From assembly GCA_947304355.1 (NCBI GenBank), contig CAMZAX010000024.1, positions 1 to 33,811 of the forward strand: a stretch of DNA of 33,811 nt, in the 5' to 3' direction. Numbering within the stretch: the first letter of the stretch is position 1; the number at the start of each line of letters is the position of its first letter. Origin of the DNA: an uncultured Selenomonadales bacterium (GTDB taxonomy: Bacteria > Bacillota > Negativicutes > Selenomonadales > Selenomonadaceae). Position numbers and translations under genes: made by a program. Of the stretch, positions 26,405-30,850 are shown one piece after another. The notes under the pieces are model-generated. The model worked only from the letters and a program-made list of their open reading frames with translations, was not told where the DNA came from and did not search any database.

Positions 26405-26441
26405 TTGTCTGCATATTGTCTGCATTAGGCGTTTGTCTGCA
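26405..26441. repeat. Triple TTGTCTGCA repeat at the integrase 3' end (candidate arm or attachment site)
   Basis: The 9-mer TTGTCTGCA occurs at 26405, 26416 and 26433. Two copies are intergenic and the third covers the last codons of the integrase gene. Direct repeats next to int at the element boundary are typical of integrase arm-type or excisionase sites; the exact core attachment site cannot be fixed because the other element end is outside the window. Confidence 0.5.
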
Positions 26442-27624
26442 AAGATTTTGCAAAAAGAACGGCAGCTTCTTCTTGTAATTTCAGTGTGTTGTGAGCATAA
26501 AGATTCTGAGTGATCTGCGTATTTGCATGACCGAGGCGACCCGCAACTGCTTTCGCTGGTACTCCCATTTCTATCAGTTGAGTGGTGTGAGTGTGGCGGA
26601 ACGAATGCGCGTTTAAATTTTCTGCGCGCAATAATTTGGTTATTCTGTCTTGAAATACCAATTGACCGTCATCACGAGTGCATATCAGCTCAACTTTTGC
26701 AACGGTGGAAGGCGGCAGGACTTTTGAATGTCGAATAATATGCCCGTCGTCTTCACGGTAAACGCACACGTAGCGATCACCGAAGGTCTCTTCGTTCCCC
26801 ATTTGCCGAATTCGCCAGCGGTTTAGCTCTCTGAGTAGTACATCATCCACAATTATGTATCGCTTGCTTGTTTTGGTTTTTGGCGCGTCAAGGTAATAGC
26901 CGCGCTTGCTTCGGTAACTTAGTTGCTGATTGACGTTAATTTTTTTTTTCGCGAAGTCAACATCAGCCCAGCTTAAGCCGAGGACTTCGCCGATTCGCAT
27001 TCCCGTATGATACAAAAGCAAGAGTGGAATATAAAGCGACGACCCGAAGGGATATTTCACAAGCAAGGCGGCAAATCTTTCGGGCGTGATTATCGTTCGC
27101 TTTATGACGTTGCGCGGCGCGTTCTTCGGAACCTTGATATAAGCGGCGGGATTGGAGCTGATTAGTTGCGAAGGGTATACGGCATTGTTCAACGCATTTC
27201 TCAGAAGCGCGTGTATCCCGGAAATGGTATTGTAGGCAAGCCCGTTCTTTTGCAACTTACGAATCCAGTTGTCGAGCATTGCCGGTGTTAATGCTTGTAA
27301 TTTTACTTCGCCGAGATAAGGGACAATCTGGTTTTGAAAATATGATTGATAAGACTGCATTGTCGACGGCTTAACGTTGAGCATGACGACGTTGTTCAGC
27401 CAATTAGTCAAGAATTCTTTCAACGTGACAGATTCGCTCGTAATGCCGATATTACCGTGCAGGAAGTCGATGTAAGCCTCGACGCCCGCTTTGTATGCCG
27501 CCGCCTTGGTAGGGTAGCCGCCCTTTTCGACGACCTTGCGTTTGCCGTCGACTTTGCCCGCCTCAAAGATGTAGCTAAAAGTCTTGCCGCGCTTTCGTGT
27601 ACGGACTTGCGCAGTCTTCGCCAT
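26425..27624 (-). CDS. int: Tyrosine recombinase / integrase of a prophage or integrative element
   Basis: A 399-residue phage-type integrase. The N-terminal arm-binding domain (KRGKTFSYIFEAGKVDGKRKVVEKGGY) resembles those of Firmicute temperate phages and ICEs. A SAM-like core-binding domain runs about 65-160. The catalytic domain has the first Arg in HTGMRIGEVLGLSW, the beta-strand Lys around KTKTSKRY, HSFRHTH (H-x-x-R), GRLGHAN, and the nucleophile Tyr in QNLYAH. All catalytic residues are present. It inserts and, with a directionality factor, excises the element. ATG at 27624 is chosen: domain homology starts there and GGTGA precedes it, while the frame open further upstream is untypical. 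It reads toward lepB. Confidence 0.93.
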   Translation of the reverse strand: MAKTAQVRTRKRGKTFSYIFEAGKVDGKRKVVEKGGYPTKAAAYKAGVEAYIDFLHGNIGITSESVTLKEFLTNWLNNVVMLNVKPSTMQSYQSYFQNQIVPYLGEVKLQALTPAMLDNWIRKLQKNGLAYNTISGIHALLRNALNNAVYPSQLISSNPAAYIKVPKNAPRNVIKRTIITPERFAALLVKYPFGSSLYIPLLLLYHTGMRIGEVLGLSWADVDFAKKKINVNQQLSYRSKRGYYLDAPKTKTSKRYIIVDDVLLRELNRWRIRQMGNEETFGDRYVCVYREDDGHIIRHSKVLPPSTVAKVELICTRDDGQLVFQDRITKLLRAENLNAHSFRHTHTTQLIEMGVPAKAVAGRLGHANTQITQNLYAHNTLKLQEEAAVLFAKSLQTNA

Positions 27625-27647
27625 GAAAATCACCGCCCACAAATTAA

Positions 27648-27673
27648 CCCTCCAATGCGGAGGGGCTTTTTTT
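27648..27673 (+). terminator. Hairpin with T tract, plus-strand oriented, between int and the lipoprotein gene
   Basis: CCCTCC / GGAGGG with loop AATGC is followed by GGC-type bases and seven T on the plus strand. On the minus strand, where the flanking genes lie, it is followed only by TTAATTT, so as a terminator of the lipoprotein gene it would be weak. It may block antisense transcription or partly attenuate int. Confidence 0.5.
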
Positions 27674-28706
27674 ATTGCTCGCCTATGCAAAACGCCACGC
27701 CTATTGGCAACGTGACTGTGCTGTAGAGTTTGCCGCCCGTAACCGTCGACGTGCCAATCAACCACTCGAACACCGGGTTCGCAAGCCCGAAGGTGTCTTG
27801 AATTTTCGCAACGTCGTCAGCCGTCGCAAGCCCGTCGGTCGCTATCGTCTTGTAGTAAACGTCGCGCGCCAGCAGTAAATTTTCGGCATCAACGGAATCG
27901 TCGCCGCTCGGCGCAACGACTATCGCCACTTCACGAAGCTTACCCGACTTGTGCACCGTCAACATCAACATTACTCGTTCGGTGAAGAACGCTTGCACAA
28001 CGTCTTGAACGTCGCCGCTTACGTAACGCTCATTCGCCATACGGAAATGACAATTGGTGTCGCGAACACACGCCGCGTTGAATTTTTGCTTGAACTGCGC
28101 GGGCGTCATGGAAAACAGATTCGCTTTCGGCAATTCACTGCGAACAAGCTCCGAAATAACGCCTTCGCCTTTTTTGAACGCCGCGCTTAAACCCTTGCCT
28201 TTGCCGCCGATTATCAGCGCGAAACTGCCGTCCTCAAGCTTTTGACGATAAAATTGTCCGTCGCCAAAAGTTACGGGCTCGTCAAAGTAGGCGTCGCGGT
28301 CAGTCCATTGCGCTATCGGTTCGTTCAAACCCAAGTCGCTCGCAATTTTTTCGGTGTCGGCGACAGTTACGTTCGGGAAGACCGCCCGAATCGCTTGCTT
28401 GAAAATCGTAACAGCCTCTTGAACCGCAATGCCGTCAAAGCCCGTTTGATTCGGGCGTAAGACTACCAAAACTTCTTGCACACTGCCTGACGAATTTTTC
28501 TGCAATGCGACAAAAATATTTTCACTCACCGCGAACGGCTCATTGGCGATTGCCGCGCCGATACTTACTCCTTGCGCGTTTGTGCCGACCAGTCGATTGA
28601 ATTCGCCGATAAATTTATCCGTCGTCGTCAGTCCCGCCGAACTCGACGCGCACCCGCTCACCAACATTGTTACCAATGCCGCGCAGATTATCAAAAACTT
28701 TTTCAT
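27672..28706 (-). CDS. Lipoprotein with two tandem related domains
   Basis: A 344-residue lipoprotein of unrecognised family. The signal peptide MKKFLIICAALVTMLVSGC ends in a good lipobox (V-S-G-C), so it should be lipid-anchored outside the inner membrane. The mature part seems duplicated. One half has FVALQKNSSGSVQEVLVVLRP, then TVADTEKIASDLGLNEPIAQW and GQFYRQKLEDGSFALIIGG. The other half has LMLTVHKSGKLREVAIVVAP, then ATADDVAKIQDTFGLANPVFEW and GGKLYSTVTLPIGVAFCI. Its ATG overlaps the preceding gene's stop (ATGA) with GAGG upstream. The place between int and the repressor is typical of lysogenic-conversion cargo, and phage lipoproteins there often exclude other phages; this is inference from position. 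Confidence 0.75.
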   Translation of the reverse strand: MKKFLIICAALVTMLVSGCASSSAGLTTTDKFIGEFNRLVGTNAQGVSIGAAIANEPFAVSENIFVALQKNSSGSVQEVLVVLRPNQTGFDGIAVQEAVTIFKQAIRAVFPNVTVADTEKIASDLGLNEPIAQWTDRDAYFDEPVTFGDGQFYRQKLEDGSFALIIGGKGKGLSAAFKKGEGVISELVRSELPKANLFSMTPAQFKQKFNAACVRDTNCHFRMANERYVSGDVQDVVQAFFTERVMLMLTVHKSGKLREVAIVVAPSGDDSVDAENLLLARDVYYKTIATDGLATADDVAKIQDTFGLANPVFEWLIGTSTVTGGKLYSTVTLPIGVAFCIGEQ

Positions 28707-29440
28707 GATTCAGCCTCGCGCACATAAAGTTTGTTCGTGGAGCCCGCTTTTTCTTTACGGATTAACAACGACGATCGAACGAAACTTTTCAAGCAATCCT
28801 TATCGGCGTCGGGCAGGGCTTTGTAGATATTTTTCTGCAGAAAGCCTTCGTTGTGCCGGAGAAAGTCAATCGCAAGTTCCGCCGTCTCTTTATATCGGTT
28901 GAAATGTTCAAGCGCGGCTTTGCCATGGTCGTCATAGGCGGCTACCTTCGCGCACAGTTCGATAGCGGCGCGGGCTTTATCCCACTGACCAAGGCGTAGA
29001 TACAATTCGACGCCAACATCACGACAGGGAATACTGTCCGGCAATCGTCCGAAGTCTTTACGATACACGTTCACGAACGTCCACAAGATTTTATAGGACG
29101 CCTCACACGCGGCAAGCTTGGCGTGGATGTCTTTGCCGGAGCGAATTTCTTCACTCAAGCGGAAGTATGTTGCGAACGGCTCGTCGACACCGTGTTCTTC
29201 GTACCAAAAGCCGTCGTCGTTTAAATCGTGCGTCATTGTTACCCCCCCCCCCAGGAGTTTATCGAGAGAAAAGTACATTGACAACCACCAGCTGAGTGCC
29301 GCGCACCAAAAGACAAGGAAAATTTCTCGCCAATATTCTTGAACAAATAAGACCACTGCGCCGCCGGCAACCCAAAGCGCGACGGAACCCATTGCAAAAT
29401 ACCTAACCTTAACTAACAAACTGTGTCTTCGTCTGCGCAC
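28703..29440 (-). CDS. Membrane-anchored protein whose frame crosses an 11-G tract
   Basis: As sequenced, one frame of 245 codons. The first 66 residues hold a basic N-terminus (MRRRRHSLLVKVRY) and two hydrophobic helices (about 16-33 and 40-58), ending KLLGGG where the coding strand has eleven G in a row. The rest is soluble and helical (EEHGVDEPFATYFRLSEEIR, LYLRLGQWDKARAAIELCAK, FLRHNEGFLQKNIYKALPD) and could be TPR-like; I recognise no family. An ATG at 29236, five bases after the G tract, could start the soluble part alone (177 residues) with the tract as Shine-Dalgarno. The GTG at 29440 has GAGG about eight bases upstream and lies just after the previous gene's stop. It is coupled to the lipoprotein gene. 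Confidence 0.7.
   Translation of the reverse strand: MRRRRHSLLVKVRYFAMGSVALWVAGGAVVLFVQEYWREIFLVFWCAALSWWLSMYFSLDKLLGGGVTMTHDLNDDGFWYEEHGVDEPFATYFRLSEEIRSGKDIHAKLAACEASYKILWTFVNVYRKDFGRLPDSIPCRDVGVELYLRLGQWDKARAAIELCAKVAAYDDHGKAALEHFNRYKETAELAIDFLRHNEGFLQKNIYKALPDADKDCLKSFVRSSLLIRKEKAGSTNKLYVREAES
29242..29252. repeat. Homopolymeric C11/G11 tract inside a coding region
   Basis: Eleven C on the plus strand (G on the coding strand). With 10 G the reading frame meets TAA directly after the tract; with 11 the upstream membrane part and downstream soluble part are fused; with 12 the frame ends about 30 codons later. Such tracts are typical slipped-strand switches. Confidence 0.9.
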
Positions 29441-29442
29441 GA

Positions 29443-29667
29443 TTAATCCTCGCGCCCGAAATACATGTTCACGACTTGACCGACGCAACCGATTCGCCCG
29501 TAGTTCACGAAAAATTTTTTCAGCGACGAGTTGCCTGTGTCTTCGACTGCCGTCATTTGCCCAAAAAGAATCAAGGCTTGCTGTCTGTCATCGGGCGGCA
29601 TTCGTCGATACATTTCGAGCAACTGTACTTCGTCCTCGCTCAGCGGCAATAAGTTTTCTCCGTGCAT
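29443..29667 (-). CDS. Small 74-residue protein, unknown
   Basis: Unrecognised. The sequence is MHGENLLPLSEDEVQLLEMYRRM-PPDDRQQALILFGQM, a two-helix segment like those found at the end of XRE-family repressors (L-x-x-x-Y-R-x-L-P-x-x-x-x), followed by a divergent tail with NYGRIGCVGQVVNMYFGRED. It may be a detached regulatory segment of a repressor system. GGAG lies eight bases before the ATG. It sits after the repressor-gene terminator and just ahead of the G-tract gene, so it is probably first in the cargo operon; its promoter was not identified. Confidence 0.65.
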   Translation of the reverse strand: MHGENLLPLSEDEVQLLEMYRRMPPDDRQQALILFGQMTAVEDTGNSSLKKFFVNYGRIGCVGQVVNMYFGRED

Positions 29668-29766: not shown

Positions 29767-30153
29767 TCAGCCAACGCCACCCGCGCTCGATAAATCTTCC
29801 GCCAAATTTTTGTCGACATCTTCGTACTCCGCATTCAGTGTTCGCAGGACGTTTCGTTGCCCCCGCTTATCCAAGCACCGGAACTTTTGAATCATGTCAA
29901 TTTCGTCTTCGGTAAATCCCAACTCCAGCAAATGTTTATTCGGCTTGCCGTACGCTTTGTTCATGACTTCAATCGGATCTGCGCCGCATATTTCGCAAAA
30001 CGCTACGAAGGAATCGATGTCGGGGTCTGCCTTGCCAAGTTCCCAGTTGCTTATGGTGCCGCCTTTAACGCCCAATTTCTCAGCTACGTCGCTCTGTTTG
30101 AGACCTGCTTTCTTGCGAGCTTCTTTAAGTAATTCTTGCGCGACTATGTTCAC
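29767..30153 (-). CDS. cI-like XRE-family repressor
   Basis: A 128-residue transcriptional regulator. The N-terminal HTH_3 domain reads ELLKEARKKAGLKQSDVAEKLGVKGGTISNWELGKADPDID, a standard five-helix Xre fold. The C-terminal part (FTEDEIDMIQKFRCLDKRGQRNVLRTLNAEYE) is a short helical oligomerisation region with no S24 peptidase, so RecA-stimulated self-cleavage is not expected. GTG at 30153 is preferred because GGAGG lies eight bases upstream; GTG at 30162 overlaps that Shine-Dalgarno. It is transcribed from TATAAT / TTGATT within the control region and should bind the palindromic operators there to keep the element dormant. Confidence 0.88.
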   Translation of the reverse strand: MNIVAQELLKEARKKAGLKQSDVAEKLGVKGGTISNWELGKADPDIDSFVAFCEICGADPIEVMNKAYGKPNKHLLELGFTEDEIDMIQKFRCLDKRGQRNVLRTLNAEYEDVDKNLAEDLSSAGGVG

Positions 30154-30176
30154 GTCTGTCACCTCCTTTTTCAGCT

Positions 30177-30305: not shown

Positions 30306-30527
30306 ATGTTCGACTTCGCAGCTTTTAAAGAGTACTTAGAAAATCGCGGCATTAAGCAAACATTCGTCGCTCAGCAGATAGGCATAAGTATTGCAAACCT
30401 TAATGCAATTCTCACGGGGCGTCAAAAATGTTCTCTTGAACAGTACGTCAGTCTTTGCCATCTGTTTGAACTGCCGTTCGGCAAATTTCTTGCACTCGGC
30501 GGCAAAACTGCACAAGCGACGGAGTGA
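30306..30527 (+). CDS. Cro-like XRE-family regulator
   Basis: A 73-residue DNA-binding protein. FAAFKEYLENRGIKQTFVAQQIGISIANLNAILTGRQKCSLEQYVSLCHLFELPF is an HTH_3 domain and little else, the size of phage Cro proteins. It is the first gene of the rightward early operon and should counteract the cI-like repressor. The ATG at 30306 has AGGTAGGTG a few bases upstream; the frame is open a little further but would run into the operator. Its stop overlaps a possible GTG of the next gene. Confidence 0.85.
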   Translation: MFDFAAFKEYLENRGIKQTFVAQQIGISIANLNAILTGRQKCSLEQYVSLCHLFELPFGKFLALGGKTAQATE

Positions 30528-30532
30528 CCGCA

Positions 30533-30850
30533 ATGGCGACGATTAATCTTGATGAACTGCGGGAAGCCGTGGAACTGGCGCGGGAACTCGAACGGATAGC
30601 GGACAAAGTGACGCCCATGTTGCAACTTATCAAGGAACTCGGAGGCGGCAAGGGCGTCATAATCCCGCCTGCTACCGACCGTTTCATCGGGCGCGGCGAA
30701 GTTACCAAAATTCTCAAATGCGGTGCGGGCACCGTCGCAAAGCTCATCGAACGCGGGCAACTTACGCCGTACTACGTCGCCGATTCAAGGGCGGCAAAAT
30801 TCCGCTTGTCACAAGTCGAAGAAATTCTCGGCAAACGCTCAAAGGGGTGA
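30533..30850 (+). CDS. Excisionase-like HTH protein
   Basis: A 105-residue protein. The N-terminal half is a helix with heptad character (LDELREAVELARELERIAD), then a Gly-rich linker. The C-terminal half, RFIGRGEVTKILKCGAGTVAKLIERGQLTPYYVADSRAAKFRLSQVEEIL, is a MerR/Xis-type winged helix (HTH_17) in which the recognition helix is followed by a wing. Such proteins act as excisionases or as early regulators. The ATG has GGAG about nine bases upstream. The location directly after cro fits either role; the triple TTGTCTGCA repeats at the int end would be natural targets if it is a directionality factor, which is inference. Confidence 0.7.
   Translation: MATINLDELREAVELARELERIADKVTPMLQLIKELGGGKGVIIPPATDRFIGRGEVTKILKCGAGTVAKLIERGQLTPYYVADSRAAKFRLSQVEEILGKRSKG

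Follow-up and report, generated by a model that had tools for sequence, protein, structure and literature searches.

A G11 tract as a candidate switch between anchored and free forms of a protein in a prophage-like element of an uncultured Selenomonadales bacterium

A homopolymeric G11 tract was found in the genome of an uncultured Selenomonadales bacterium, inside a gene with an HTH_3 regulator on one side and a tyrosine integrase on the other. The window, i.e. the whole stretch of DNA that was analysed, comprised 33,811 nucleotides; its last position, 33811, is 7.4 kb beyond that end of the element where the integrase lies. With the tract as assembled, a membrane anchor is joined to a soluble domain. 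Unit changes in tract length alter the product on arithmetic alone; one frame merges the two ORFs and another ends the first ORF at the tract, which is the arrangement expected of a fusion/split switch. A switch of tethering within a prophage-like element, as read from the DNA, is favoured over the rival explanations, and its chance of being correct is judged to be about even. Should the tract switch, the lysogens of one population would differ, the same prophage protein being tethered in some cells and free in others, and the outcome would be a reversible change of localisation instead of an on/off change. The features of the locus are as follows.

26425..27765, minus strand: tyrosine integrase, the ORF being taken from its first possible start
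27672..28706, minus strand: lipoprotein-like ORF, so described by eye from its N-terminus; shares 4 nt with the end of the soluble ORF
28703..29440, minus strand: fused ORF of 245 aa at the assembled tract length, by product arithmetic
28703..29236, minus strand: soluble ORF of 177 aa, with its ATG at 29234-29236, 5 nt after the tract
29239..29241, minus strand: TAA closing the anchor ORF at G10 or G13, from the sequence and product arithmetic
29242..29252, minus strand: G11 homopolymer tract (C11 on the plus strand)
29253..29440, minus strand: anchor segment, with a GTG start, a basic N-terminus and two hydrophobic segments; ends at the tract
29448-29451, minus strand: GAGG, putative ribosome-binding site for the anchor GTG, read from the sequence 7 nt upstream of it
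29443..29667, minus strand: ORF of 74 aa lying directly upstream, apparently in one operon with the gene, with a weak WGR match below cut-off
29767..30162, minus strand: HTH_3 repressor-like regulator, by profile match
30524..30850, plus strand: excisionase-like regulator (match at 1.7e-4), divergent from the repressor

The element is probably a prophage or a related integrative element, as it carries an integrase, a repressor and an excisionase-like gene. Part of the lipoprotein-like ORF (27672-28706) matches PHROG families of unknown function, and the operon may have a role in the envelope.

The sequence observation behind the preliminary description was confirmed. The tract lies inside the gene (C11 on the plus strand at 29242-29252) and joins a two-segment membrane anchor, with hydropathy peaks of 2.13 and 1.58 (19-residue window), to the 177-residue soluble ORF. 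On the gene strand, TAACAATG stands directly 3' of the tract. Products of the frame opened by the GTG at 29440 were computed as 244 residues at G8, 95 at G9, 66 at G10, 245 at G11, 96 at G12, 67 at G13 and 246 at G14. It had been claimed that with one G fewer a TAA follows at once, that with one G more the frame ends after about 30 codons, and that an ATG lies five bases past the tract; all three agree with the computation, since TAA follows the tract immediately at G10, the G12 product carries a 30-residue tail and the ATG opens 177 residues. The tail at G9 and G12 is in the wrong frame and of about 30 residues. The anchor frame is the sole stop-free frame of six over 29253-29440, and the GAGG of its GTG overlaps the end of the preceding ORF. 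By codon score the anchor is neutral (0.34) and the soluble frame strongly coding (29.2). An RNA hairpin across the tract was considered and rejected, as folding was ordinary there (z -0.55).

In the proposed mechanism, replication slippage would change the length of a contingency tract in the gene between repressor and integrase. At lengths of 8, 11 and 14, read-through would give an anchored protein whose soluble domain is cytoplasmic, an orientation suggested by the basic N-terminus. At 10 and 13, translation would stop at the TAA and the soluble domain would start two bases later, the G tract serving as a Shine-Dalgarno-like element, so that anchor and domain would be made separately. At 9 and 12 the anchor would end in the short tail read in the wrong frame. 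No tract length, G11 included, disturbs the soluble start; the soluble form may thus be made in all tract states, and a switch would act on tethering and not on presence. We infer that the G11 tract varies in length, that translation does begin at the internal ATG and that tethering is of importance.

The structure model places the tract in a flexible linker, pLDDT being mostly <50 over residues 59-85 and mostly >90 between about residues 90 and 240; the internal Met is residue 69. The soluble part that follows the linker is predicted to be a rigid domain with a fold of its own, made up of TPR-like helices and a C-terminal winged-helix-like unit. A TPR_14 match reached 13.2 bits against a Pfam gathering score of 23.5 and is below threshold; weak TPR matches were also obtained in some relatives. 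No match to the protein was found with defence-family and phage-family profiles or in phage records, and the best solved structure by sequence was at E 0.036. One might guess at a function in lysogen biology, perhaps DNA binding through the winged helix.

Homologues of the soluble part were located in 4 of the 65 other genomes of the genus, at seven loci in named genomes and at four in viral contigs. These make up 11 distinct loci, as three of the seven named-genome loci seem to be the same as three of the four in the genus and two viral proteins are identical. The preliminary description had proposed counting tract lengths in related genomes; a G tract of at least seven was present at the domain in 0 of the 11 distinct homologous loci. 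At one locus (L062) a run of ten occurs about 2.7 kb upstream of the domain. The nearest homologue by E-value is from Selenomonadales bacterium UBA7018 (the protein is the same as in G024). It is in one piece, with one N-terminal hydrophobic segment as anchor and no tract. Its neighbourhood holds an HTH regulator, the homologue, a 73-residue ORF and an integrase and, by eye, is similar but not identical to that in the window, where the small ORF precedes the gene and the lipoprotein-like ORF comes after it. In a Clostridiaceae record (L055) and an unclassified bacterium (L057) the domain closes, or nearly closes, a long protein whose N-terminal part has strong hydrophobic segments; the frame of L057 breaks inside, and a frame break also interrupts L056. 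Five others (L053, L058, L059, L060 and L061) lack such a segment, and two of them, L059 and L061, are soluble and some 170 residues long, about the size expected from the internal ATG. The homologue in G068 (L050) carries a stop and looks broken, and L051 is a weak match with internal stops.

By sequence, then, the family occurs both tethered and free, but without the tract. With an anchored closest relative and soluble homologues elsewhere, both of the proposed states exist within it. Homologues that are single fused proteins without a tract had been named beforehand as evidence against a switch. The closest relative is indeed anchored and tractless, but its anchor has one segment and other homologues are soluble, and the objection applies in part. 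A homologue of the anchor itself was sought with no convincing match, none being better than E 0.04 in the 65 other genomes of the genus. No viral contigs with these exact flanks, and no viral copies of another tract length, were found. These comparisons used one genome per species, and the present species is represented by a single genome.

The genome (G000) is a draft of 2.4 Mb, 88% complete and in 66 contigs. Exact G runs counted over both strands of the whole genome numbered 9 for G7, 3 for G8, 5 for G9, 13 for G10, 7 for G11, 5 for G12 and 1 for G13, giving 31 tracts of G9-G13. Short runs from G2 to G6 became about five- to elevenfold fewer per added base (148 kb of sequence), and the second mode at G10 differs from the random-sequence expectation. 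G11 is long enough to slip and of a length beyond chance, as in simple-sequence contingency loci. A sample of 200 class genomes, drawn at a completeness of 90% or more with G000 retained, gave 26 tracts of G10 or longer in G000, 86 in G003 and no more than 15 in any of the remaining 198. In one of the two genomes with 15 (G235, from another genus of the family), all fifteen G10 tracts lie within about 1 kb (G235:C9:3589-4675), probably in a repeat-rich gene. Within the genus, at least one such tract was present in 65 of 66 genomes and at least 20 in 9 of 66.

A Pfam match at E 0.001 was obtained for 17 of 30 proteins at or near the genome's own tracts. The families included glycosyltransferase family 2 (GT2), FkbM and TylF methyltransferases, hexapeptide transferase, DUF5672, DUF268 and radical SAM, together with a citrate-transporter-type protein and an HpaII methylase-endonuclease fusion; hydroxyethylthiazole kinase is among the tract genes with no obvious surface role. 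The HpaII-type methylase and endonuclease are in one ORF at 1-2013 of L019 (G000:C2:21140-25140), with a G13 six bases before its end. Membership of the tracts in a repeated mobile element was rejected, as the 400-base flanks of the 31 match only among three glycosyltransferase genes (L022, L030 and L043), apart from one 18-base stretch shared by L019 and L020. Loss of mismatch repair was likewise rejected: mutS was over cut-off in 57 and mutL in 58 of the 66 genomes of the genus, and both are full-length in G000. With both genes present, slippage would have to escape repair and its rates should be lower. A role of the G11 tract as promoter spacer was rejected because it lies between two ORFs. 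Elsewhere, tracts between TTGACA-like and TATAAT-like boxes were seen by eye at L041 and L044 (G000), L063 and L066 (G003), and L084 and L090 (G017), and recall promoter-spacer phase variation.

Tracts were compared across six genomes (31 of 31 in G000, 20 of 86 in G003, 16 of 16 in G017, 20 of 42 in G053, 15 of 17 in G045 and 5 of 5 in G024); tracts sharing the same 15 bases on either side were taken as one, and further tracts that happened to lie in the stretches analysed were included. Among the resulting 107 tracts there were 41 pairs with both flanks homologous, many of which come from a single paralogous family of G003. For 9 of the 31 own tracts, a homologous one was found in another species. 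Seven of these nine cross-species groups were read, L028 and L037 being excluded: in four of them some members are in frame and others not, and three are wholly out of frame. The mixed groups were TylF (L036 vs L083 and L121), hexapeptide transferase (L021 vs L092), glycosyltransferase (L043 and L086 vs L110) and FkbM (L033 vs L130 and L134); in the within-genome pair L022/L030 both members are in frame. By a crude codon-usage method, which left 65 of the 107 not classable, 42 tracts had coding sequence to either side and 11 of these were in frame, close to the third that drifting states would give. Two tracts of G017:C45 (L093 and L094), 1.8 kb apart with near-identical flanks on both sides, have lengths of G10 and G13. 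Phase variation predicts what is seen here, namely tracts in surface-glycan and restriction-modification genes, their recurrence at one site in several species and a mixture of frame states, and the G9-G13 tracts of this genome are very probably phase-variation tracts.

The coding tracts elsewhere in the genome and the genus resemble plain frame switches, and the nearest homologue is one anchored protein. Both favour ordinary on/off phase variation, in which G11 would be the ON state giving the anchored protein, the other frames would be OFF truncations and the internal ATG would be incidental. This comes next in likelihood after the tethering switch but is regarded as unlikely; against it stand a TAA and a start codon with a 5-nt spacer right behind the tract, and the two soluble homologues of about 170 residues (L059 and L061). 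The toggle between an anchored fusion and separate products put forward in the preliminary description is supported in part, by the arithmetic, the population of long G tracts and the linker in the model, but no homologue has a tract at that place.

The tract could also be a neutral passenger of a prophage in decay, or the assembly could have its length wrong by one. The draft is incomplete (88% complete, 66 contigs) and the G068 homologue is stop-bearing and apparently broken, but both ORFs are open in the window, the soluble frame has its codon score of 29.2, and 31 tracts with nearly all flanks unrelated are improbable as assembly errors; this account is held to be quite unlikely.

The tract as a general ribosome-binding element was rejected, being barely above control. 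A G9 followed by ATG within 2-10 nt occurred 14 times in G000 vs 7 in the backwards control and, with overlapping windows counted, 96 vs 75 times over the 25 genomes of the genus listed, so ribosome-binding-site tracts are not a general device here. That the two genes are normally separate, with the tract in the ribosome-binding region of the second tuning translation of the soluble protein and the G11 fusion a by-product, is for this reason and because of the unremarkable folding very unlikely, in spite of the five-nt spacer, the TAACAATG overlap, the tight gene packing and the existence of soluble homologues.

The bases beside the tracts differ between species. Signatures include T-Gn-TTA (G000), C-Gn-CA (G003) and Gn-TG (G054), and also Gn-ATT and Gn-TA; they were seen in G000, G003, G017, G053, G024, G054 and G052, and the short G runs of these genomes differ from them. 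For the base after the tract, and likewise for the base before, the difference between genomes exceeded all 2000 label shuffles (137 tracts, nine genomes with at least five), although paralogous genes inflate the counts. A T precedes 23 of the 31 tracts in G000, compared with 18% of runs of three or four G. Flanks were mixed in G044 (7 tracts) and in G049 and G050 (4 each, outside the test), and G045 was split between two forms. Coverage of the flank counts was 18 of 29 tracts in G054, 6 of 6 in G052, 4 of 5 in G050 (one lost at a contig end), 4 of 5 in G049 and 7 of 7 in G044. As several species have their own signature, one speculative reading, considered very doubtful, is that a process that reads adjacent bases builds or keeps the G tracts of the genus and that a prophage took one up to switch a winged-helix protein between membrane-tethered and free.

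A search of the open-access literature, with subscription papers outside its scope, turned up neither this organism nor the prophage setting nor the pairing of anchor and soluble domain, and nothing combining Selenomonas, phase variation and homopolymeric. Some species of this genus, part of a little-studied group and probably in or near Selenomonadaceae, appear to rival Campylobacter, a member of a different phylum, in long G tracts. The 31 tracts of G000 (30 of them at L017-L046) form a poly-G phasome of Campylobacter size, with several in surface-glycan and restriction-modification genes. Campylobacter is described as having tens of tracts per genome, with a median of 20 for C. jejuni in a draft set, mostly of 9-10 G and mostly in ORFs (PMC6321876). 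The passages concerned describe single-gene switching (PMC6321876). The genus studied here differs further in having species-specific tract-flanking bases in several genomes.

Fusion/split switching is known as a kind from Helicobacter canadensis and Neisseria, the published cases being HCAN_0660/HCAN_0661 and the gonococcal and pglB2 fusions. In S. agalactiae, repeats decide the presence or absence of wall-attachment motifs, and the likeness is that repeat length sets whether a protein carries its attachment motif (PMC5320596). There the wall anchor is C-terminal and the relevant passage mentions no separate soluble start (PMC5320596); here a membrane anchor is N-terminal. In Neisseria, a gonococcal fusion (NGK_1211/NGK_1212) and a pglB2 fusion through poly-A are reported, in which, as here, a frame change joins neighbouring coding sequences (PMC5320596). 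No anchor/soluble pair is described in the text on these fusions, and the repeat type of pglB2 differs (PMC5320596). The 'C-terminal phase variation' of HCAN_0660/HCAN_0661 in H. canadensis involves a poly-G late in one ORF, one frame of which merges that ORF with the next, so that the product is either one merged protein or a separate pair; a range of tract lengths is reported in reads (PMC2823697). Both parts are given there as hypothetical, the second of 82 aa (PMC2823697), whereas the first part here is a membrane anchor; unlike that case, a start codon stands right behind the tract and the gene is in a prophage-like element.
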